In this document: positions 6,603-44,700 of the stretch, one piece after another
Position numbering within the stretch: position 1 is the stretch's first letter
Layout: each line of letters opens with the position of its first letter
From: Mesodorylaimus sp. YZB2_4
Taxonomy: Eukaryota; Nematoda; Enoplea; Dorylaimida; Dorylaimidae
Reading direction: 5' to 3'
Assembly (NCBI GenBank): GCA_030248295.1
Contig: JASANH010000863.1
Span: 186,001 to 250,000 of the forward strand
DNA: 64,000 nt
The notes under the pieces: generated by a model
What the model saw: only the letters and a program-made list of their open reading frames with translations
The model's database searches: none
Told to the model about the DNA's origin: nothing
Made by a program: the position numbers and the translations under genes

Positions 6603-9600
6603 ATGTTTTCCGCCAGTTTTATTCATTTTCCCCTTCTCATTTTTCTTGTCTATGCTTGTTCGCTTCAAGCCTGCCCTTCGGTGAGGAGTGTGAAACCGTG
6701 CATTTGCTCATCGACCGATCAAACTCACAATCAGGCGACTAGTCGTTGGGTCAATGTGACTTGCTCATACGCTCGATCATGGTTTCAAATCAGAGATGCC
6801 TTACAACAATTTCGTCGAAGTACTCGATATTTCATACAAACTCTTTTGATCGAAAAAGTGCGCGATTCGTTGAGCAATGGACGGAGATTGAACGGAATAT
6901 TCCGACACGTCCGCGTGGCAGAGTTGATCGTGGTCGACTGCATTTTGACATCGGATGGACGAGTTCCCAAACGAACTTTCGCTGATGCATCCTGGATTAC
7001 GTCACTGCATTTGCATGAACTCGGATTAAAGTCAGGTGAGTCAGAGTTATTTGCACTGCACAGCCGTAATTAACTCGTCAGGGCACCGGTTTTGGGGTTT
7101 GCTACCCACTGCTAAGGATTTAAAGGGGTCTGACCCGAGGGATAAAAGTAGACTTTGCTGAATGTTACTCTTGCATAAATGATGCCGTACAAGACTCACA
7201 CGACTGTTGTTAGATGACTACCAAAAAGTTACAGATTCACTTCGAAATCAGCAGACACTAATCGAAAGCTTACGAGACTCTAATCAGACGCAGCGCTAAA
7301 TGGCATTTTTCGCAGATTAAGTAAAGAACTCGAGTGAGTATCGAGCGAAAATTCTAATTTTGTTGCCCGTTTCTATTGGCCTTTCGCAGTTTCTGCTGAA
7401 GTACAGTATGTAATTTATTAAGTTTTGGTACGTGTAGTTTTATCGACTTTTCTGGAAACCTTCGCGAAGCGCACAAATAAAGAAAACATGGTTTTTCAGG
7501 GCACATGAACTGTAGGAAGGCTTCAATGTTTCATCTGGCATTCGTAATGAGGTTGCGTCTTTTGTGCACCCACAGTAACTTCAAAGCAAAGAGCAAGCAT
7601 AAACTTCACTTCGAAAGTTTAAAAAAAACTGAAGTTTATAAATTCTTTTCGGTAGCTAAATCTGTGGCCAAATAAAATGGCTAGAATAAAAATCACGTAC
7701 CTTTTTACCTGTAGTTTTGAGCATGCAATCTTATGCACTTTCTCAAAACATAATAGAATCGATTACCGATGAATTGAGTGATTGATTGCTGATCAATTAT
7801 CGATAATTGGCCAGCGATTCAATCACAGTACTACAGCAAACGATTATCGATAATCGATAATCAGATGAGGCAACGGATTATGATTATGATGCGATCGACT
7901 GCTCGCAATGCGCCAGATTTTTGCCATGTTTCATTCTTTTTCTGCAGAGAAAATGACGATGAATGACTCCAGCAGTCTGTGCCACAGGTGTCTCCATACT
8001 CCAATACTATAATATGCGCCTATAAAGCCAAGACCAAACTCAAAAGCCTTCTGGTTTTTTCTCTTAACTTATCAAGCTATATGGTATTGTACCGAGTACG
8101 CATGCACGTTTTATCCAAGGTCTGTGCATGCACGAACATGCATGAATTTTATCAAGATTTTCATCGCCCTATTGCTTGTTTTCACGCTGTACATTCAGAC
8201 ATGTATGACATGCTCAAAACATGTTGGACTAACGATAAGATCATAAAACTGACAATAAGTTCTACCATGCAGTCCTTGTCGATTCGCGCCATATCTGTCC
8301 TCAGAATCATAAGAATTACACTCTAGAGTAAATGTGTAGCCAAAAATGATACTCGACTTACAATAGCTGTACTGCACATAGATTTTCCTGATTGTTTTGC
8401 ATTTTTCTGCTGCTGACAGTCGCAGAAAGAGCAAAAAAATGATTGAGTACCACCTTTTGCAAAAACCAAAGAAACGAAACTTGACCACTCCACTCCACAT
8501 TGAAGGAGATATGAAGTTATCACGTAGGTAGCAATCTAATTTCAGTAGTCTTCTTACAGCTTTTAAAATATAGAAAATCGGCGTGACGCACGAACAGAAA
8601 GCGATCAGATATGCACAAACTTTTTATTAATTTCTTTGTAGTCCCAACAAAAGCGCTGCGCTTATTGCCAATTCTAAACGAGCTATCACTCGCCCGCAAT
8701 CACATATCCTCAATCAACCGGCGTTCATTTCGGTATCAATCGTCAACTTTGAAATACCTCGATCTTCAACGCAATCAACTGATCGAAGTGCCCAGTGCAG
8801 CCTTGCAGACTTTACCCCACCTAGAAATACTCTTATTGAATGGTAACAGAATTCGGCAATGTCCCGTCCATGCCTTCAACGCAACCCCGAATTTAGAAGC
8901 ATTGGAATTGTCGGACAACGAAATAACATTCATTCACGAACATGCTTTCAGTCAGCTATATCGGTTGAAACACTTGGGCGTGGCTGGAAATCCTTTATAT
9001 TCGGGTATCTACAAGGCATTCAACCATATGCCTGCCCCGCATGGCTTACTGTCCTTGGACGTCAGTGCAACTGCCGTCGACTTGCAATGGGCTGCCAGCA
9101 CGCATGCGAACCTGACCTCTCTGGTCATTCAGTATCACATGGACCCGATTTCCATCGATTATCTATCTTCGTGTTCCAACTTGATCGATTTGGATCTTAG
9201 AGGCAACCATCAGATCGATCCCGTTCAATTTACCAACCTGGAATCCACACTCCCCACAGTCAAAAGATTGGACGCCACAGAGACCAGCCTATCCATAAGT
9301 CATCTGAGGGCATTCCCAGCCTTGGAAGCAGCTTATATGAGCTCCAATAAAGTACGACAATTAAGGCAAATTCATTTAACTCCTTTAAGAAATTTGAGCA
9401 TTTTGCACTTGAGTGATTGTGATCTACGTCATGTGGAAATGAGTGCATTCTGGCACTTGGCTACGATCATTAAAGAAATCAATCTTAGTCATAATCGATT
9501 GCGGAGATTGAAAAGAAGAACTTTCCATAATCTGCAACAATTAACTACCTTGGACTTGTCCTATAATTTATTTCGGGATTATGATAAAAGCCATGATAAT

Positions 9601-12600
9601 TTTCAAACTAACAATCAAAAATTAATTTTTCCATTAAATAAAAGATTTTTTAATCGACATTCGAGTAGGTCACTTCGAACTTTGTCCTTGGCTGGCAATG
9701 GACTAAGACGAGTACCTGAACGGTGTCTTATGACATTGGTCAAATTAAATGATTTAGATTTATCCGGAAATCGAATTGAAAACATACAATTGCAATTTCG
9801 ATACAATGTAGAACTAGAACATTTGAATTTGAAAAATAATAAAATTTCGTATGTTCATCCTGATGCATTTCGATTTTTGACAAAACTGCGGTCCTTGAAT
9901 TTGAGCTGGAATCAATTGACTACCATTAACGCCGTGATTTTTCCCATGAGTCTAAGAGAATTGGATGTTGGACGATGCTATTTGAAGGAGTTGAAAAATC
10001 CGTTTTTGGCGACGTTAAATCGATTGAGATTGGTGGATTTCAGCTATAATATGATACAGAGAATTCCGAGTCGATTGTTTCAGAATTCTAGTGGTACTTT
10101 GGTTTATGTGGACTTGGCAAGTAAGTGGGTAAAATAGTCTCTTTTAGTTCGCCCTGGGACCCACGTGGTTCACGTCATGCTTTCCACATCACCAAAGCAC
10201 AGGTGCGCACTTTTGATGCTGATCCGGATACTTGATGGTCACGAATAGTAATCTGTTTGGCACTTCTGATCACCGATAATCACTTATCAGCAATTATCAC
10301 CAACGAATGCTGATAACGGGTAACTGACCTTGGTTAATCACTGCTAGTTACATGCACCTGTCACTTCGGCATTTACCGCAAATTCCGCCTTATACCGTAT
10401 TTAGGCACTTGTGGGTCTCTGCTTAACGAAATCAAGGGGATCAGACGGAGCTGGTAATGGGGGGGGGTAGGGATCAGCGAGGTGCCAAGCACATCACAGT
10501 ACAATTTCGATGTCATGTTTTATGCCCGCACCGGGCAATGTTGAGTTTTAGTTCTTGAGTTTGAGCTTTCAGTCAGTTCTGTGAGTGATTTTTTAAATCT
10601 AAATTTAAAAGACTTTTGTAATTATAAGGCAAATATAACAAAAGGCAGCTGCGGCTTAGTTGGCTGGGTTATGACCTACAGAGCTAACCACGCCACACTC
10701 AATTAAGCACCCAAAGTGCGCTGGTTGGTGAAAATCGTAGAGCTCTGCGATCGCCCTCGCAATACGTGCCATTACGCAACACGGTGTAAGAATAGAAAAG
10801 AAAGAAAAATGCTGACGAAATTGTTGATGACGTTTACTAGGCAAAACGTGGAGCACGAGAACACGCTGACTAATATGTGAACAGACATCCCTATTTATAC
10901 CTTTCATAATGCACATGCTCGGTAAGAACTGGTCTGTCAGAACAGCTACAAACACCAAGAAACAGGTCAAAGTTAGTGGCGCAGGTAGAGTGACATAATG
11001 CAAAATAATCTACAGCATGGGACCTATTCTGTGACCCAGAAAATATTACCTGCGGGTGCTTAATTAAACACGAGACTGGACCTATTCTAATGCGCGAGGA
11101 TCCATTCGTGATTGTGGCCTGGGACGAGTACTGTGCTTGTCATAGGTAGTGATTGCCAACAGAAAATTTCGCGGCAGAATTCAACTTCAAATACCTTCAT
11201 CACAGTATATACCGGTACTTGTTTTCTTGGCGAGCACTGCCATGGTGTGTATGTGCCTAGGTATGAGTAGACACCGGATCAGGTAGGGTTGACCCGACCC
11301 TAATGTCCCTGACCCGAAAATTCGGGTCGGGTTGACCCAAAATTTTATGCGGCAGCTAAAGTTTTTTGAGGGAAACTTCGTGCAATTCCTCCCAACAGAT
11401 GGTGACTTTGGTGTAAGTGTGATCGTGTGAAAATATTTCAGTGAGGACACCTTATTTTGCGCACCCGAAGTTTCATCTTTTGTAACTCCCTAGTAATCCT
11501 TACAAAACGCATTCCTTTGGATTTCCCACAATAGTGGTCAAATATTTAAAAAACCTGTATATCTAAAAGCGACTAGGCCACGCTAGTATTTAGCAAGACT
11601 TGACCAATACAAATAATAAAGACTAGGTATTTGCATAACTTTTTAAGTCGAAGACAGGCTCTACTGATTAACCCACGCTAGATTATTCACCTAGTCTTTT
11701 CAAAAGATGCTGCTTGTAAAGTGATATTGTCATGGAGACTACCTCCTGTCAGGATCTTTGCTACTGTACTGATGCAAATGTCTTTTGGTCTTTTTGTGGG
11801 TTTTGGTTGCAATGTACAGTACAGTAACATTAATTGGCGCTCGAGGGAGTTATTGGTGCACAGAACATACCAGGGTTTTTCAGCCTATCCCCAAGAACTA
11901 ACATCTTCATATTCATGAATCGAATAAGGCTGTATTCCTTATAAGACCTCTTTGAAGTTGTAGTCCTACTAGGCCTATGGCTAATCTCACCCATGCATCA
12001 TGGTTCCTAAGAATTTCAATGAGAACTTACTTGAATGAACACTTTTGCAGAAATGACTCAGAAAATTCTGTCATACTCACATCTTAGTCTGACATTCTTG
12101 GAAGTTGCGCATAATGAAAACGGGGGGGGGGGGGAGTGCAAGGCTTTATGCATGCCAAGCAAGTTCTGCGAGTCCTGGAGTTTAGAGCAGATATGAAAAA
12201 TTTTCTGTCGGTGCTAATCGTGGTGACTCGCGAAAGTGCAATTTTTTTACCGGTCCTTTAAGGTTGGCCGATCCTTTAGAAAAGTGACCCGACTCGATTT
12301 TGACCCGACCCGACCCGACCCGACCCGAATCTACCTGACCCGATCTGGGGTCTACTGTACATAGGTATGAGGACAAGGCACTGAACGTAGGGCGCCTATA
12401 CTTATATAGCAAAAATGAGTGGGGAAGCTTATAAAATTTGGATTAAGGTTTACGTAGTGCTTAGAAGTGAGTGTGTAAGAAGAGCATGAATATGGTAACT
12501 AGGTATATTCCGAAGAGCTGTTTGGTGGTTAGCTTAGAACTCAATAGAAACTGTCAGGGCTAACATCGAAATGGAGGTAGTTAATTCTACTGTACTCGTA

Positions 12601-13576: not shown

Positions 13577-16500
13577 ATGCACGTTATAAAACGAGGTAAG
13601 AATCCACACTCACGACATGATTGGAGTTCGATGCTTTTAAAAAATGACTTGATTTTAGATGGACGAAAAGAAGCAGTTCAGTTCGATAAGATTACGTCGA
13701 GGATCCATAAATTATGCGGTGGATTGGACACGGCTCATGTTGAACCTGTAAGAGCAATACAGTACAGTACCCCAGGTTTTCTGATGAACTTTTGAGCCGC
13801 CGATACTACCTAATCATTTAATCCAGTAGTCCATATTTGGTCGTGCCGTGAGGAAAAGCCCGCTCTGCTATCCAATGCTCAATGGCCTAAAGTATTTTGT
13901 TTCTTCCAATTTTTCCCCCGCTTAAAACCATATTTGATGTCGGTCCATGTTATGTATGTTTTCGCTTTTTAGGTTGCCGTATCGCATAAGGTAGTCGGTG
14001 GCTTGTACAGTGGTGTCACCACCGTCGAGTTGGATAACCTTGCCGCCGAGACTGCGGCTACGTTGACGACTAAACATCCGGACTACGCGATCTTGGCTGC
14101 TCGTATCGCTATGAGCAACCTCTATAAAGAAACTAAAAGCGTTTTTTCCGAAGTCATTGCCGATTTGTACGACATGGTCGATGCAAAAAGTGGCCTTCGA
14201 TGCGGTTCGATTTCTAAAGAGCTTCACGATATTGTCCAGAAAAATTCGGAGGTAAAATCATTGTCTTTATTGCTTCAGGCTTTTGTGCGTAAAATTGACT
14301 GAAAGTTTTTTTAGCGCCTTAATTCCTCTATCGTCTATGATCGTGATTTTTCGTATACGTACTTCGGTTTCAGAACTCTGGAACGAGCGTACTTGTTAAA
14401 AATTAATGGAAAAGGTAAAACACAAAAATCCTCTTTGTTGACGTCGGGACACATAAAACAATGATTTCAGTACTAGAAACTTTCGCCAAAGGATGGGGTC
14501 AGCTGCCAAAATCCATGATTTCTCTTTACTCTCCTTTGCACTGAATCAGAAATCTGAGGGGTTACCCACACAGATCCAGATACTGATGATGAACAATATT
14601 TGTGTTTTCATACTTCGAGAAGTCGTGTATTTCTTCTCCTTAGCCAGCGATCTAATGCACTGTAGTCTTAACCTTGGTTCCCTCTTGTCAATTTTGTAAA
14701 ACCTTTGCTTTCCTTTGTAGTGGCCGAACGTCCTCAACACATGTTGATGCGTGTCGCTGTCGGAATTCATGGAAATAATATCGATGACGCTATTGAGGTA
14801 AGGTTTCTATTACGTATCCAGTAACATAAGATTTAGATTTTGTTATTTAGACGTATGACCTGTTGTCGCAAAAGTATTTCACCCACGCTTCGCCCACGTT
14901 GTTCAACGCTGGGACAATTCGACCTCAGCTAAGCAGCTGTTTCTTATTGACCATGACCGAAGATAGCATTAATGGCATTTACGATACGTTAAAACGATGC
15001 GCGATGATCTCCAAAAGCGCTGGTGGAATTGGGCTCAATGTACATTGCATTCGAGCGACTGGAAGTTACATTGCTGGGGTGAGTACTGTTGGGTTAAGTT
15101 AGATTTTGTCTGCATTCGACTGACAGAAAGGCTTGTGCCCTGCTATTGAGAATGGGCCAGCATCCGAAACTGGGGAAGTCGCCCAGGTGACCCCCTCAAC
15201 TTCCCAATGGGAAAGTCAGGGAAATGCTGACTGGGGTCGTCCAGTCATGATGTACATCATATTGGCATTGTTTTGGTTCTTGATGGTCTTTCAACCACAA
15301 TCTTAAGGTAACCTGGACTGCCAAACTTTTACAGACCAATGGGACATCGAATGGTATCTTGCCTATGTTACGCGTGTATAACAATACTGCACGTTACGTT
15401 GATCAAGGAGGAAACAAGGTATACAATAGTGTTTTTTGCATGTAGACTGGTGGCGGGTCGAACGGCGTGCTTCCCATGATACGAGTCTACAATGAATGCG
15501 CACGACACGTGTCTCAAGGCGGAGGAAAGGTGAGAAACTGTTCTTCAAAAATGACCTGAGGGAGAGAAATATTTTCGGAAAAGGTTTTTTCCATTTAAAA
15601 TTTTAAACTTCAATAAAAAAGTCAGCCAATCACTTCAAAGTCTAGTTATTTTGGTCAAATTACATATTAGTAACTCATGCGTCCTTTTCGAAAATTTTCT
15701 TTCGTTTTGGTCGTCTAAGATTTTGAAGTTTTAGTTACTTGAAATTTCTTTCTGGTAGCGTTACGCTCTCCGTTTGTCTTTTTGAAGGAATGGTTTCTTG
15801 CTTGTTCAACAGCATGATTCGACTCGTATCACCACACCAGCACATAAGCACTAGTTAGGAACTGTATTTTGATTTTGTCTTCATTTTTTAGCGCCCAGGA
15901 GCTTTCGCCATCTACTTGGAACCATGGCATGCTGATATTTTTGATTTTCTGGACGCAAAGAAGAACACGGGCAAAGATGAACAACGAGCCCGTGATTTAT
16001 TCTACGCTTTATGGATTCCGGATTTGTTTATGAAGCGCGTAGAGGCAAATGCGGAATGGTCGTTAATGTGCCCTCACGAATCGCCTGGGTTGGCCGACGT
16101 TTGGGGTGATGAGTTCGATAAATTGTATGAAAGGTGAGCGAGGCATGGAATTCGTTTGTGGCTGAAGAAAAGGTAGGTGAAATTTCAGCTATGAAGCGGA
16201 AGGGCGATTCAAGAAACGTGTGAAGGCTCGTCAGTTGTGGAATGCTGTCGTCGGAGCTCAAATCGAAACTGGGACGCCGTATATGCTTTACAAGGACGCG
16301 TGCAATCGGAAGTCAAATCAACAAAATTTGGGAACGATCAAGTGCTCGAATTTGTGCACGGAAATCGTGGAATATTCATCGCCTGATGAGGTAATGGCAT
16401 CCTGTTTGCGGCAGGTGTAGATTGTTGCGTTTAGCTGGGGTTCTGGTTCTGAAAGAAATATAGCTGGGGGTATTCGACATTTTTCATGATGGAGGATCCA

Positions 16501-19500
16501 TGTTGCAATAGGAAATCGTCTTGTGTCGGAAGTTCCTGGTAAACAACAAGGCATTGTCTCTGCTGATTTCTCAATTTGATTATAATATCAACTCTTGTGA
16601 AATGGGGTGGGTAGACGACATTAGGAGCTTCCAAACTTTTCTTCAAAATTTCTGCAAAGAAAAATTTTTTATACTGCAGATAAAATGGCAAAAAGAGTAA
16701 AAACTCCTTTGACGCTATTTGAGCTGGCCGCTTTTGACTTTATTCGCTGCAGTATACATCTATTTGTGTCAATTTTTCACCTTGTCGTATTCAGACATCT
16801 TTTTTTTAAGGTGGCCGTATGTAATTTGGCATCGTTGGCTTTGAACTCTTTCGTGGACATGCCAGACCGTACGTTCAATTTTAAGAAACTGTACCAAGTA
16901 GTGAAAGTAGTGACGAGGAATTTGAATAAGATCATTGATGTCAACTATTATCCGGTACCAGAGGTATGAAAAAGTCTGATATCTTGCCGCGAAATTGGCG
17001 GATTTGGAAAATCTGTCTTTCCTTTAGGCTGAGTTTTCGAATAAGCGTCATCGTCCGATTGGTATTGGTGTGCAAGGATTGGCGGACGCTTTTATTTTGA
17101 TGCGTTATCCGTATGATTCTGAGAAAGCTAAGCTTTTGAATATTCAAGTCTTTGAGACGATCTATTACGCCGCTATGGAGGCCAGCTCTGAATTAGCGGA
17201 AAAATATGGAACGTACGAAACTTATGAAGGATCGCCTGTCAGCAAGGGCATATTTCAGTTCGACATGTGGGGTGTGACACCGACTGAATTGTGGAATTGG
17301 AACAGTTTGAAGCAGAAGGTGGCCAAGTAAGTGAATAGTACTGTTCTGACTCATAGTTCTCTATATTTGAATTTCCCGCCAAAAATTTCTTAAGATTTGG
17401 CCCCTATTAGGAAACACTCTGACTTATGGCCCCGTAGACGGATAGCGGTACTCTGCTAAAAAAGGTTATCGTGTAATCGATTCGTTCAAGTTAACTTGTC
17501 TGATGGCTGTTTGGCTTATATCCCAAGTCACACAATAATTTTTTGGACGAGTTAGATTTTTTGTTTCAGGCATGGCGTTAGAAACTCGCTGCTCGTCGCA
17601 CCAATGCCGACCGCTTCGACCGCGCAGATTTTGGGCAATAATGAATCTTTCGAGGCCTACACGTCGAACATATACACTCGTCGTGTATTGTCTGGCGAAT
17701 TTCAGGTAAGAGACGTTCGCCTTCTGCGCCAAGCATTGTCTGCCTCAATGTCTCCTTCACTGTAGGTTGTTAATCCGCATTTGATGAAGGATCTCGTTGA
17801 ACTTGGATTGTGGAACGATAGTTTAAAAAATGAGATCGTTGCTAATCGTGGTTCGATTCAACAAATCGATGCGATTCCGAAAGAGATCAGGGACTTGTAC
17901 AAGACGGTCTGGGAAATCTCGCAAAAGACTGTTATCAGTATGGCGGCCGATCGTGGTGCCTTTATCGATCAATCTCAATCGTTGAATATTCATATCGCTG
18001 AGCCGACTTATTCCAACATCACGTCTATGCATTTTCTGGGCTGGAAGAAAGTAAGCTCATTGTTGGTGAGATGTGTTAAAATGCAGTGAGGCTTGCTCGA
18101 TTGAAGCATGTGGTAAAAGTCATATCACGAACATTTAGGAGACCCCACTGGTTTGGTTGGCTAAAATTTTGGAAAGGGTCCCCATGTCGCGTCATCGCAA
18201 ACTGTCAGCTTAGTATTTAGATTAGTGATGAATGTTGACGATCTGCCTGAATTACTAGCTTCGGGCGATAGGCCCGACCCCAGGGTCGACCGTACCGTAC
18301 TGCCGTACCGGGGGGTGGTACGGTGCGGTACGGGTACGGCAGTGAAAACAGGCCGGTACGGCCGTACCTCCAGGGTTATGTCATTTTTAAATTTTCCGCG
18401 CTTCAGTGATTCGCAGGTGCATACAGCTCACTTCAAAACAGCTGTTTTTGAGTAGGTGTTCGAGAAAGTGTGAGATCAAGAAGATTGTTGCACTTTGATT
18501 TGAAATCAAGAAAGTGTGAAATCAAGAAAATTGTTGCACTGTACCGTAGCTGCAGGACTTGCTGGTGTGAATTGAATTTCGTAGCTGGTCTGTTGGGACA
18601 GCCAGTTAGGTCTTATCAGCAAATGTCTTCTAAAGTTTACGATTATTACTACATCGACGACAACGACGAATTACACGCAATTTGCAAGGTCTGTAAGACA
18701 AAGATCTCGAGAGGCGGCCCCTCATCTCACTCTGATTTCCAGCGCTGGAAATCAGGTGCTGGAAAGCTGAGAAACCGCATTTTTAGTGGCTAAGAATGTA
18801 TGCGGGGGTAACCATGGAAGTCTTATGCCAGAAAATACCCGAATGCTTCCTTTTGTGAAATGTAATCTGCCAGCAGTTGGATTCAATACGTTCAAATTAG
18901 TCTAATACGGATGTGTAACGCCAGATTCAAACAAGCTAATAAAGTACTTTTGCTGAACTGTCCGCTTTTGAAATCAAAGCATAACCAGCTAAGAAAGTTT
19001 CTTATTCATATGCAGTTGAGTACGGTTAAAATTTTGAGTACGGTACGGTACGGCCGTACCAGGCCCTCGGTACGGGTACGGTCAAAAAAGCCGGTACGGT
19101 CGACCCTGGGCCCGACCCGTCTAAGCTATCTCATTACTGCTTTATAATGCGCCTTTTACGCATTTTCCTGTAGTGGAAGCTATGCTTCGACATTTTATAT
19201 CCTTCAGTATTTCCTCGACTTGAATGCTCTTCTTAGAAGTGTTTGACTGATTGTGAGAATAGAAAGCAACGAATTGGTTCTTTGACTTATTATCATAACG
19301 TTGTTTTCTGATTACTGAGGGCTGACTAGCACATTCACATCCAAAGTACAGTGCTGAAGCACAGCACATTCAAATCCTAGCATGATTAAAAGGGACTAGT
19401 CCAGGCCAGGCTAGGCTAGCTTTCCTGTTCAGTGACAACGGCAAGCCTGATCTGATTGCGTGTGAGACAGGTCAAGTTTGGGTCGAGTCGAGTGAGTTGT

Positions 19501-20199
19501 ATGACTGTTTACATACAGTGCTGTTGTAGGCTAGCTGGACAATTGGCCTGTTCTTGGAAGCCAGGGCTTGGTCCAGCCCAGATACGATTTGATCGCTCTT
19601 GCTTCCTTCTTTTTCTTTCTTCCTGCTGGACCTGAGGGGGTGGGGTTTCGATAGGAAGGGTTTCAATGTCCTGGCCGGCCCAACAGGGGCGGCTTACCCC
19701 CTCCCCCCCTCCTTTCCCCCCTAGATTAGTGATTCCGAAATTAAACCAGGGGGGTCGTCGTCACCTTTTTTTGTAAAAGGCCGCGAGAACTGCAGTATAG
19801 TTTCTTGCCAAAATCTTAATTAATTTAGATGATCGCGGGGAAATTTGCGTATATGCAAGTTGCTTTCTCCCTCTGACCTTGGCCGTACTTGTTAATGGGA
19901 GCCTTATGGCAGATCCTTATTAATTGTAGGGTTTGAAGACTGGAATGTATTACTTGCGTACCAAACCAGCCTCGAACGCGATTCAATTTACGCTCGATAA
20001 GTCCGCCTTGAAAGCGAAGAAAGATACGAGTGGCAGTGGAGATTCGACGCCCGAGCTGAATTCTTCATTCGGCAATAGTCCATCGAACGGAGACAGTGGA
20101 AAGAATGATCGCGATCAGTTGCGTCGTGCAGCATTCGAAAAAGCGGCGTCTGCCTGCTCGTTGCAGAATGGCGATGCTTGCATGATGTGTAGCTCGTAA
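13577..20199 (+). CDS. rnr-1: Ribonucleoside-diphosphate reductase large subunit (class Ia R1), complete, with alternative exons
   Basis: It reduces ribonucleoside diphosphates to deoxy forms, with the small subunit R2 supplying the radical. Exons: 13577-13595, 13659-13747, 13973-14251, 14315-14414, 14721-14797, 14851-15078, then 7A 15335-15418 or 7B 15446-15529, 15892-16133, 16189-16390, 16811-16963, 17028-17326, 17570-17705, 17766-18050 and 19930-20199. With one exon 7 they give 820 aa (human RRM1 is 792). Visible features are the N-terminal ATP cone starting MHVIKRDGRKEAV, active-site cysteines in [10 protein letters not shown] and [11 protein letters not shown], the radical-site NLCTEIVEY (N, C, E), the tyrosines of GMYYLRTKP and the C-terminal redox CMMC. 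The start is the first ATG and opens the ATP cone as in orthologs. The 1.9-kb last intron carries a hAT-like element. The symbol follows nematode usage. Confidence 0.97.
15335..15418 (+). other. RNR exon 7A (canonical specificity-loop exon)
   Basis: 84 nt, phase 0, 28 codons. It reads [20 protein letters not shown] and ends VDQGGNK, almost identical to other eukaryotic R1 proteins. The segment covers specificity-site loop 1 and the start of loop 2, which relays the bound dNTP effector to the substrate site. Flanking signals are TTTTACAG and GTATAC. Confidence 0.9.
15446..15529 (+). other. RNR exon 7B (variant specificity-loop exon)
   Basis: 84 nt, phase 0, 28 codons. It encodes the same segment as 7A with 19 of 28 identical residues, reading [20 protein letters not shown] and ending VSQGGGK. 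The loop-2 pattern DQGGNK becomes SQGGGK. Its acceptor is TGCATGTAG and its donor GTGAGA. The 27-nt gap after 7A is probably too short to be spliced. If retained, it adds eight codons and then TAG, so transcripts with both exons would be non-productive. Confidence 0.85.
18280..19109. mobile_element. 830-bp non-autonomous hAT-like transposon with BED-finger remnant
   Basis: Terminal inverted repeats start CCAGGGTCGACCGTACC. The 8-bp duplication GCCCGACC (18272-18279 and 19110-19117) is the hAT length. CGGTACGG repeats crowd both ends. Inside, about 18620-18760 encodes [15 protein letters not shown] followed by [13 protein letters not shown] and a histidine, like a BED zinc finger of hAT transposases; the catalytic region is absent. 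It lies in the last RNR intron. Confidence 0.85.
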
Positions 20200-42301: not shown

Positions 42302-43807
42302 ATGGATGAAAATTCAGAGCTTATTACTGCTTCAGTGAAAAACGGCAATATTTTTGGATTAAGTGAGAAGGACAAAGAGGACATTGCGTATATCTCCTTC
42401 GAATTGAACAATTTGCTAAATGTTAGTCCAAACGAAATCATCAGAGCCGTTGCAATGGAAATTTACGAAAGTAAGCATTCGATAATTGCTGTCATGAAGT
42501 CAAAGGCCATGTTCTTGAAGTTTTCATCCAAAAAGCAAGAGATCTAGCTGTGAAGGAAAAGCTTCCAATTTTTAACATTCGAGTAAAGCTGGAGTGCCCG
42601 AGACAACACATTCCAATAATGAAGAAAATGATTTGTTTATTTGCGATTCCGATTGGCATTGGACACGGCGAAGTTACAAAATGGCTGAAGGACCAAAGTT
42701 TAAGCCCTACATCTGACGTCCGTTGGACATGTTGGAAAGGCACCAAGATTGGAAACGGGGGAAGGTCGGTCATGATCTCGACGCCACCAGAGTAAGAAAT
42801 CCCTGGTTTCGCGAGCATGAAGTCAGCACAGCTAGCAAGGCCAGTAATTGTAGATTTGGTACCATGGAATCGAAACGTGGTGTTGGAGGTGTAAGCAAAA
42901 AGGCCATATGTCAAAAGAGTGTCCAGCAACGGATTATAGGCCACAGCCTGGATCATACGCAGCAATGACGAGTGGCCAGCCAGGAGGCGGTTTTCGTCCA
43001 GCAGTGTCATCATCGAGCAAAGCCCCAGACGCTGATCAATCGATATCCGTTGTAGATAAAGAAGATTTTCCGCCATTGCAGTCACTTCACAATGAGAACC
43101 AAATCTCTCGAACGAATCGGGAGAACGAGAAAACAAAGTCATTAAAGGAAAAGCGAGAAATTTTTTCTTTCTTCAGCAAAGCATAACCGCTTTCTAATCA
43201 CCACCCAGGCAAAATTAAGATCGATGGCCAAATATATAGCTCAACAGAACAATACCTATTCAAAGAGAAAGCGAGGGCCATGGGTGAAAAGTCGACTGAA
43301 AAATTGATTATGAAAGCAAAAAGTGGCTCTCAAGCAAAACAGATGGGTAAATCGACTCAGAGGGAACACAGTGAGGGTGGTAGCGATTGGCTGGCATTTG
43401 CAAAGGAGAAGTTGCGTTTTGCAAATGAGAAAAAATTTGAACAAAACCCGACCATGAGAAAATTCTTGTTCGAAACCGCTCCAAAACTGCTAGTGGAAGG
43501 GAACCCGAATGATAGCAGATGCTAGGCGAGGCGAGGATGCGATGACCAGAAAATTTACTATCAATCCAAGTGGAAGGGTGCCAACGAATTCGGGATAATG
43601 CTTACGTTGATTCGTGACGAGATGATAAAAAGGGACGAATACGTCAACGAGGTGCAAGAAACATTGCAGCGATCTGCGACGGTGGAGGAGAGGAGCAAGC
43701 GGCCGCGTAGCAGCACCAGCAGCAACGTTTCGAGCTCTGACGATCCGAATGACTCACGGAACCCTAGGAAGCCGCCTAGGAGCGATTCCGCATGCCTGGA
43801 ATGTTAA
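42302..43807 (+). pseudogene. LINE ORF1 with zinc knuckle and NADAR (YbiA-like) domain
   Basis: Most of it lies in one frame (42302-42547, 42881-43807), with a middle piece one frame off (about 42525-42795). Order: an N-terminal acidic segment, a gag-like region (KEKLPIFNIRVKLECP), a CCHC knuckle at 42881-42922 (CWRCKQKGHMSKEC), a linker, then a NADAR domain at about 43187-43640 and a Ser/Arg-rich tail. NADAR marks are IDGQIYSSTEQYLFKEKA (YbiA has SEHYFQAQK), KKFEQNPTMRKFLFETAPKL, LVEGNPNDSR and a final KGANEFGIMLTLIRDEM. In-frame stops are at 43184-43186 and 43523-43525; the second falls where the family's conserved WG is expected. NADAR enzymes hydrolyse N-glycosidic bonds. Why an ORF1 would carry one is unknown. 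Confidence 0.85.
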
Positions 43808-43908
43808 TGAAGGTATGAACCAGGGGGCGCCAAGCGTACACTTTAGGTCTGGAGAGATTATTTCTGCTTCCCTGTCGATTCCCTTTTCTCTTTTTTGCCG
43901 CTCTCAGT

Positions 43909-44700
43909 ATGGTAGCTAGGATCACTTTTGCCACAATAAATACAGCAGGGTTGAGGGAAAAGCCATCGAAAATTACTGCCTTCTACGAGCTCTTAAAATT
44001 ATATGATTTTGTGTGCATCCAAGAAACACATTTTCGGAACGCGAGAGAGTCAGCTATTTTTGACAATGTTTTCTATCAGAAATTCAGTCTTTTTCATAGT
44101 AATGGAAATGAATTTTGTGCAGGAGTGTGTGTTTTGGTAAATCGAGGATCTTTGTTCACTGATTTCACACGCGTAACAAGTATCGAAGGCCGAATGATAG
44201 GGTTGACTGCGAAGTATGAGAGCAATATCTTTGTTGTAATCGGGTTGTATGCTCCAGCGCAAGAAACTCCTAGAAAAGTGTTTTTCGAGAGTGTGGTCGA
44301 AACGATTATGCAAAAGTTAAGATACCATGATGCGGCTGTTTGTCTCGGTAACTTTAATTTTGTGGAATCGAAAGAGCTAGACCGTAGCACACTCACAACA
44401 TATCCTGAAGCCGGTTTTAAGAAAATCGCAAGTTTTCCTCCAAGCTTAGGCTGAGAGATGTTTATCGTGTTCGTCATCCACACACCAAGGATTTCTCTCA
44501 CTTAGCTCATAACACAAAAAGTCAAGCAAGATCAGATAGAATATACGGGACAGAAAATGTAATCGATTCATATGTCAGGCACAGGTTCGTTGAGACCGCA
44601 TTATCTGACCACAAAATCTTTGCGATATTGTTTAGATTTGATTTTGCACACATAGCAAGAGGGCCTTCTTATTGAAAGTTAGACGTGGAACTCATGCACA
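43909..44700 (+). pseudogene. LINE ORF2 fragment: apurinic-type endonuclease
   Basis: It would nick target DNA for target-primed reverse transcription. Motifs in order are ATINTAGL, CIQETHF (catalytic Glu), GLYAPA, LGNFNF (family GDFN; the Asp is Asn, codon 44350-44352) and, after a frameshift near 44440, LSDHKIF at about 44601-44620. The linker YWKLN-like segment and LWEDCK follow and then similarity ends. The first frame starts ATG right after a short gap from ORF1. The copy is inactive. Confidence 0.85.

Follow-up and report, generated by a model that had tools for sequence, protein, structure and literature searches.

The window analysed here, 64,000 nucleotides of contig C49 in the 145-Mb assembly of Mesodorylaimus sp. 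YZB2_4, carries a complete class Ia ribonucleotide reductase (RNR) large-subunit (R1) gene in which two neighbouring exons, 7A and 7B, encode two versions of one segment of the allosteric specificity site. The locus raises the question of whether a single gene provides two R1 enzymes that differ in how the effector is coupled to the substrate. We consider it probable, judging from the sequence, that 7A and 7B are spliced in a mutually exclusive way, by which this gene would give both a canonical R1 and a re-wired R1.

The gene model (Table 1) has GT-AG introns, with exon 13 ending at 18050, and in silico joining gives a protein of 820 residues with either exon 7A or exon 7B, the last codon being the sole stop in each case. 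Its barrel domain is homologous to that of class Ia R1 of the eukaryotic type: a 185-residue part containing 7B (exons 6-7B-8) matches PF02867 (E = 4.8e-65), and human R1 (PDB 3hnc) matches a 266-residue part at 1.7e-147. Residues are numbered throughout as in human and yeast R1, with D287, Q288 and R293 in register. C218, N427, C429, E431, C444 and a C-terminal CxxC, which we take to be the catalytic residues of R1, are found in both isoforms and in the protein of a second R1 gene on contig C36, and D57, R256, Q288 and R293 were likewise found in the R1 of the window. An Rfam scan of the whole 64-kb window returned no matches, and a promoter scan added nothing informative. Elsewhere in the window, a 516-residue open frame with leucine-rich repeats (PF13855) lies at 8587-10134, and at 42854-44451 on the forward strand a zinc knuckle (PF00098), a NADAR domain (PF08719, 5.4e-17) and an endonuclease match (PF03372, below the cut-off) stand in a row, a layout reminiscent of a non-LTR retroelement that either contains a NADAR domain or lies next to one.

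Table 1 Features of the R1 gene around the duplicated exon (positions within the window).
Feature	Position	Strand	Remarks
R1 gene (class Ia RNR large subunit)	13577..20199	+	14 exons; hand-built model; start codon by homology
Exon 6	14851..15078	+	end ...RATGSYIAG, the constant first part of loop 1; R256, A263, G264
Exon 7A, canonical specificity-loop cassette, residues 265-292	15335..15418	+	same amino acids as C36 exon 7
Spacer, 27 nt	15419..15445	+	7A donor GTATAC, pyrimidine-rich stretch, 7B 3' splice site (TGTTTTTTGCATGTAG)
Exon 7B, diverged cassette, residues 265-292	15446..15529	+	nine residue changes relative to 7A
Exon 8	15892..16133	+	constant end of loop 2, R293

Both copies of exon 7 are 84 nt long and in phase 0, with AG before and GT after, and their identity is 19/28 at the residue level and 51/84 in nucleotides, 7B differing from 7A by N266G, T268G, I272V, L276I, N281E, T282C, Y285H, D287S and N291G. 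Lying side by side, homologous, matched in length and phase and each equipped with splice sites of its own, they show the arrangement by which a mutually exclusive pair is recognised. An earlier description of this DNA (the sequence-only reading) had reported two adjacent 84-nt, phase-0 exons encoding the same 28-residue segment of R1 with 19 identical residues; the coordinates and the alignment agree, and this observation is confirmed, while its interpretation is partly supported by the results below. The same reading assigned the segment to specificity loop 1 and the start of loop 2. As loop 1 spans 255-271 and loop 2 spans 286-295 in human R1 (PMC5819950), this needs correction: of loop 1 the cassette takes in only the closing 7 residues, and of loop 2 the opening 7 out of 10. 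In that account of human R1, the effector phosphates are contacted by R256, A263 and G264, and Arg293 is the substrate latch (PMC5819950); since the former are encoded by exon 6 and the latter by exon 8, splicing would swap only the base-reading part of the site.

The second complete R1 gene (C36:335500-343500) has the same 14-exon structure with a single, canonical exon 7. A genome search gave at least 12 R1-family matches, all of them inside the C49 and C36 genes, and no third R1 gene that could have been the source of 7B was found by this search, the counts of which are lower bounds. An assembly duplicate or haplotype copy was rejected as an explanation of the exon pair, as 33 of the 84 nucleotides differ and R1 matches (again counted as lower bounds) occur only on C49 and C36. 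Compared with 7A, the single C36 exon 7 has 18 nucleotide differences, 17 of them at third codon positions and all silent, and the retention of 28 identical residues despite these differences places 7A under strong constraint. In a tree of 41 R1 proteins (39 picked from 145, plus the products of both genes), the C49 and C36 genes are sisters (100/100); they group with Trichinella at 89/84, below the tool's mark of strong support, and a wider set of seven rows, which adds Panagrellus, Plectus, Toxocara and one more protein, is also below that mark (93/92). Intron 11 of the C36 gene, 2,148 nt long, consists largely of a tandem array with units of ~30 nt of the type CCTGATAAGACGCCCTATCGGAATAGGGG, as judged by eye.

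The pattern of substitution indicates that 7B has been held as a coding exon. Differences between 7A and 7B number 10, 5 and 18 at codon positions 1, 2 and 3 (of 28 each; position 2 versus position 3, Fisher p = 0.0009). Four-fold sites differ at 9/12 (7A-7B), 11/14 (7A-C36) and 9/12 (7B-C36), compared with 154/243 in the rest of exons 1-13 of the C49 and C36 genes, and in the exon 7 copies they look saturated. Second-position differences amount to 5/28 between 7A and 7B and 0/28 between 7A and C36 exon 7; with four-fold sites seemingly saturated and only five second positions changed, 7B appears both old and constrained. When unconstrained divergence to 33 differences was simulated along one lineage, a mean of 18.7 amino-acid changes resulted, and nine or fewer were seen in 0 of 20,000 runs. 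All five second-position changes fall among the ten codons with a changed first position (p = 0.0026, in a post hoc test). A chance resemblance or frame artefact was ruled out by the codon-position pattern, the simulations and the four-fold comparison.

The evidence for constraint is weaker when the 7B branch is taken alone. Changes found only in 7B number 9, 5 and 7 at codon positions 1, 2 and 3, with 7 further third positions differing in all three sequences; simulation with 21 changes on this branch gave p = 0.014 for nine or fewer amino-acid changes, and a stop-free frame arose by chance in 39 to 51% of the simulated runs. In a codon-model tree the 7B branch ran to the limit set on branch length. 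Purifying selection was nevertheless found on both exons, if on weaker evidence for the 7B branch by itself, and the fact that both have been held favours alternation over either being a relic.

How unusual the 7B residues are was assessed against 147 homologous proteins (25 + 120 + 2), the 120 being the best of 7,993 matches, with no close relative among them. The alignment covers 146 of these, with P0026 left out; since the homologs are those most similar to the query, rarer loops could be missed. Among the 120 matches listed, identity to the query is 75% or less, and no protein of this species was among the matches. Y285 and D287, replaced in 7B by H and S, are invariant in all 146 aligned homologs. 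The other changed positions are less strict, with some variation in homologs at 266, 268, 281, 282 and 291 and conservative changes at 272 and 276, and on the whole the positions changed in 7B are more variable in homologs than those unchanged (one-sided Mann-Whitney p = 0.028). Five of the new residues (G268, E281, C282, H285 and S287) each occur in 0/146 homologs, and the remainder do occur there (G266 in 21, V272 in 1, I276 in 3 and G291 in 12). The eight other cassette positions that are invariant in homologs are all kept by 7B. The eukaryotic loop 2 pattern derived from these homologs, V-D-Q-G-G-N/G-K-R-P, fits 7A; with 7B the loop has S at 287 and retains V286, Q288, G289, G290, K292, R293 and P294. 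The sequence-only reading held that 7B keeps the invariant positions and looks selected: that it is constrained and not decayed agrees with our analysis, but the claim of intact invariants fails at 285 and 287, where the change of two otherwise invariant specificity residues gives the predicted difference in function a sharper form.

The 7B signature was found in 0/147 of the homologous proteins, none of which is from a close relative. Its loop HVSQGGGK, searched as a degenerate DNA pattern, hit 47 stretches, 3 of them viral and 44 from bacteria or archaea, none of which matched R1 (tblastn, E <= 1e-3). The omitted P0026, a Sarcophaga bullata record, contains two R1 copies or loops, one of them with G at 287. 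A second candidate for paired loops, Toxocara canis P0027, was set aside, as its two loop copies are identical within a repeated stretch of 104 residues and probably reflect a repeat in the gene model or assembly.

These comparisons bear on whether 7B might be a decaying relic of an exon duplication, unspliced or spliced only as noise. Such a relic would account for the loss of two otherwise invariant residues, for a signature absent from all of the homologs examined and for five residues seen in none of those aligned, and the intact C36 gene does without 7B. We regard it as improbable all the same: 7B has an open frame, no indel and good splice sites, its second positions are conserved in spite of seemingly saturated four-fold sites, eight further invariant positions are preserved, and an unconstrained exon of this age should be hardly recognisable.

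Splice sites were scored with a small matrix for which the two R1 genes supplied 25 donors and 25 acceptors. Exon 7B scored 11.3 for its donor and 9.0 for its acceptor, the latter above 12 of the 25 others, whereas the 7A donor (5.8) exceeded only 4 of 25 and the 7A acceptor (0.7) fell below the lowest of the 25 (2.7). On these scores, 7B may be the default, more easily included exon and 7A the regulated one that needs help; canonical R1 would also be available from C36. Taken further, the weak sites of 7A and the good sites of 7B would suit a replacement, in which 7B is now constitutive, 7A is a dying copy and C36 supplies the canonical R1. To this we give little credence, as 7A still matches C36 exon 7 in all 28 residues over 18 silent differences, a sign that it is still under strong constraint.

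For mutually exclusive use of 7A and 7B, each productive mRNA would keep one exon, as 6-7A-8 (canonical R1) or 6-7B-8 (variant R1). The spacer begins with GT and ends with TAG, and reading through it would lead to a stop, since this TAG is in frame; the same TAG also serves as the acceptor signal of 7B. Among 24 unambiguous introns, all from the two R1 genes, the shortest measures 53 nt, so the spacer is unlikely to be removed as an intron, and the proposal that it is too short for normal splicing is supported as far as these 24 go. A branch point usually lies some 20 to 40 nt from the acceptor. That of 7B would thus sit in or beside the 7A donor, where U1 on the 7A donor and U2 for 7B would compete and block the joining of 7A to 7B. 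The sequence-only reading attributed exclusion to the TAG brought in by retention; the in-frame TAG is real, but exclusion is more likely to be steric than driven by the stop codon.

Competing RNA structures were considered as a switch and rejected. Positions 15477-15487 in 7B pair perfectly with 15821-15831 in intron 7, and a perfect 11-nt repeat of this kind appeared in 57 of 500 shuffles. A possible hairpin of 15441-15451 with 15481-15491 lies over the 7B acceptor and overlaps the former pairing, so that the two could alternately hide and free the acceptor; folding of 15300-15560 was no better than that of shuffles (z -0.32). A decayed third copy of the exon at 15788-15838 in intron 7, suggested by roughly collinear 7A-like and 7B-like stretches, was also rejected, as 106 and 223 of 500 shuffles aligned equally well.

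The likely consequences of the 7B residues can be considered in the light of characterised RNRs, in which position 285 is already known to matter for specificity. The human mutant hRRM1-Y285A is reported to keep CDP reduction, unaffected by dTTP or dGTP, with severely impaired production of dGDP and dADP; it forms no dimers with dTTP or dGTP, ATP hexamers still form, and human Y285C is worse than Y285A in dGDP and dADP production (PMC11551754). According to the same source, yeast rnr1-Y285A is viable, with values of ~20-fold for dCTP and ~17-fold for dTTP, and the homozygous Y285A mouse is embryonic lethal (PMC11551754); this lethality counts against the reading preferred here, though the yeast mutant is viable. 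Position 287 corresponds to Ser293 of E. coli RNR, beside Gln294, the equivalent of Gln288 (PMC4728125), and Ser293 and Gln294 are described as telling dATP from dGTP and helping to set the substrate pocket (PMC4728125, PMC5819950). Loop 2 is also described as not highly conserved among characterised RNRs and as making its contacts mostly by backbone atoms, so that the side-chain changes of 7B could matter less (PMC4728125).

The sequence shows the two exons, the constraint on them, their splice sites and their residues; from it we infer the branch point, splicing, expression and enzyme behaviour of the 7A and 7B isoforms, and a difference in substrate choice is a prediction drawn solely from residues 285 and 287. 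With its phosphate contacts and catalytic residues unchanged, the 7B enzyme would still take up effectors and reduce substrates, the coupling between the two being different. Most likely, as happens in human Y285A, dTTP and dGTP would no longer turn the enzyme towards purine substrates, and it would lean to pyrimidines (CDP/UDP) or be effector-blind, ignoring dTTP and dGTP. Alternatively, effectors might be re-read through Ser287, the residue that E. coli has there. As the specificity site is found at the dimer interface, where one subunit contributes loop 2 and the adjacent one loop 1 (PMC5819950), mixed 7A/7B dimers would have chimeric sites.

Alternation could also be real with a catalytically poor 7B isoform that acts, as a partner in mixed dimers, to damp or tune R1. 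We think this rather unlikely, as the 7B protein retains the catalytic residues C218, N427, C429, E431 and C444 together with Gln288, Arg293 and the CxxC tail. The proposal gains from the lack of dimerisation of human Y285A under dTTP or dGTP (PMC11551754) and from the interface position of the site (PMC5819950). Returning to two working isoforms, we tentatively suggest that splicing and dNTP binding together set RNR specificity in this animal, with a canonical R1 and a second R1, perhaps the default, whose response to dTTP and dGTP is lost or re-coded, with chimeric sites in mixed dimers and with a splicing factor that could tune the dNTP ratio by tissue or stage; this broader proposal is considerably less secure than mutual exclusion of the exons. 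If the alternative loop is truly an encoded one, the RNR specificity rule would not be fixed, and the changes in 7B, natural and selected, could serve to test how effectors are read. The pair would further add a new example, an exon swap at an allosteric site, to the splicing switches already known.

No report of alternative exons in RNR was found in open-access full text, a body of literature from which most subscription papers are missing. The closest counterparts of the 7B loop within RNR are RRM1-Y285A and yeast rnr1-Y285A (PMC11551754; PMC4256292), in which residue 285 of the specificity site is likewise altered and for which effects on allosteric specificity and dNTP pools were measured. 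Those are engineered point mutants, whereas 7B occurs naturally as an alternative encoded in the genome, differs at nine positions and has His, not Ala, at 285. Among exon swaps, exons 6a and 6e of coq-2 in nematodes and other helminths, mutually exclusive and 134 nt long (PMC7434440), resemble 7A and 7B in being two internal exons of equal length in a nematode metabolic enzyme, one of a pan-eukaryotic type and the other distinct. Their exchange replaces a section of the enzyme core and goes with a switch of substrate (PMC7434440), in a different enzyme and pathway (ubiquinone/rhodoquinone) from RNR. The coq-2 case is backed by RNA, by exon removal in C. elegans and by conservation across helminths, annelids and mollusks, compared with the sequence of one genome for R1; its authors put mutually exclusive splicing as very rare in C. 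elegans, at fewer than 100 events (PMC7434440). Exons 4a and 4b of vertebrate OGDH (PMC7969005) provide a parallel of another kind, a mutually exclusive pair from an old exon duplication that alters the regulation of a metabolic enzyme. Exclusion was shown there, by the logic proposed here for R1, to involve branch points less than ~50 nt from the upstream donor (PMC7969005), with an intervening intron of 118-131 nt in birds and mammals as against the 27-nt spacer of the R1 gene, and what is swapped in OGDH is the response to Ca2+, whereas in R1 it would be nucleotide specificity.
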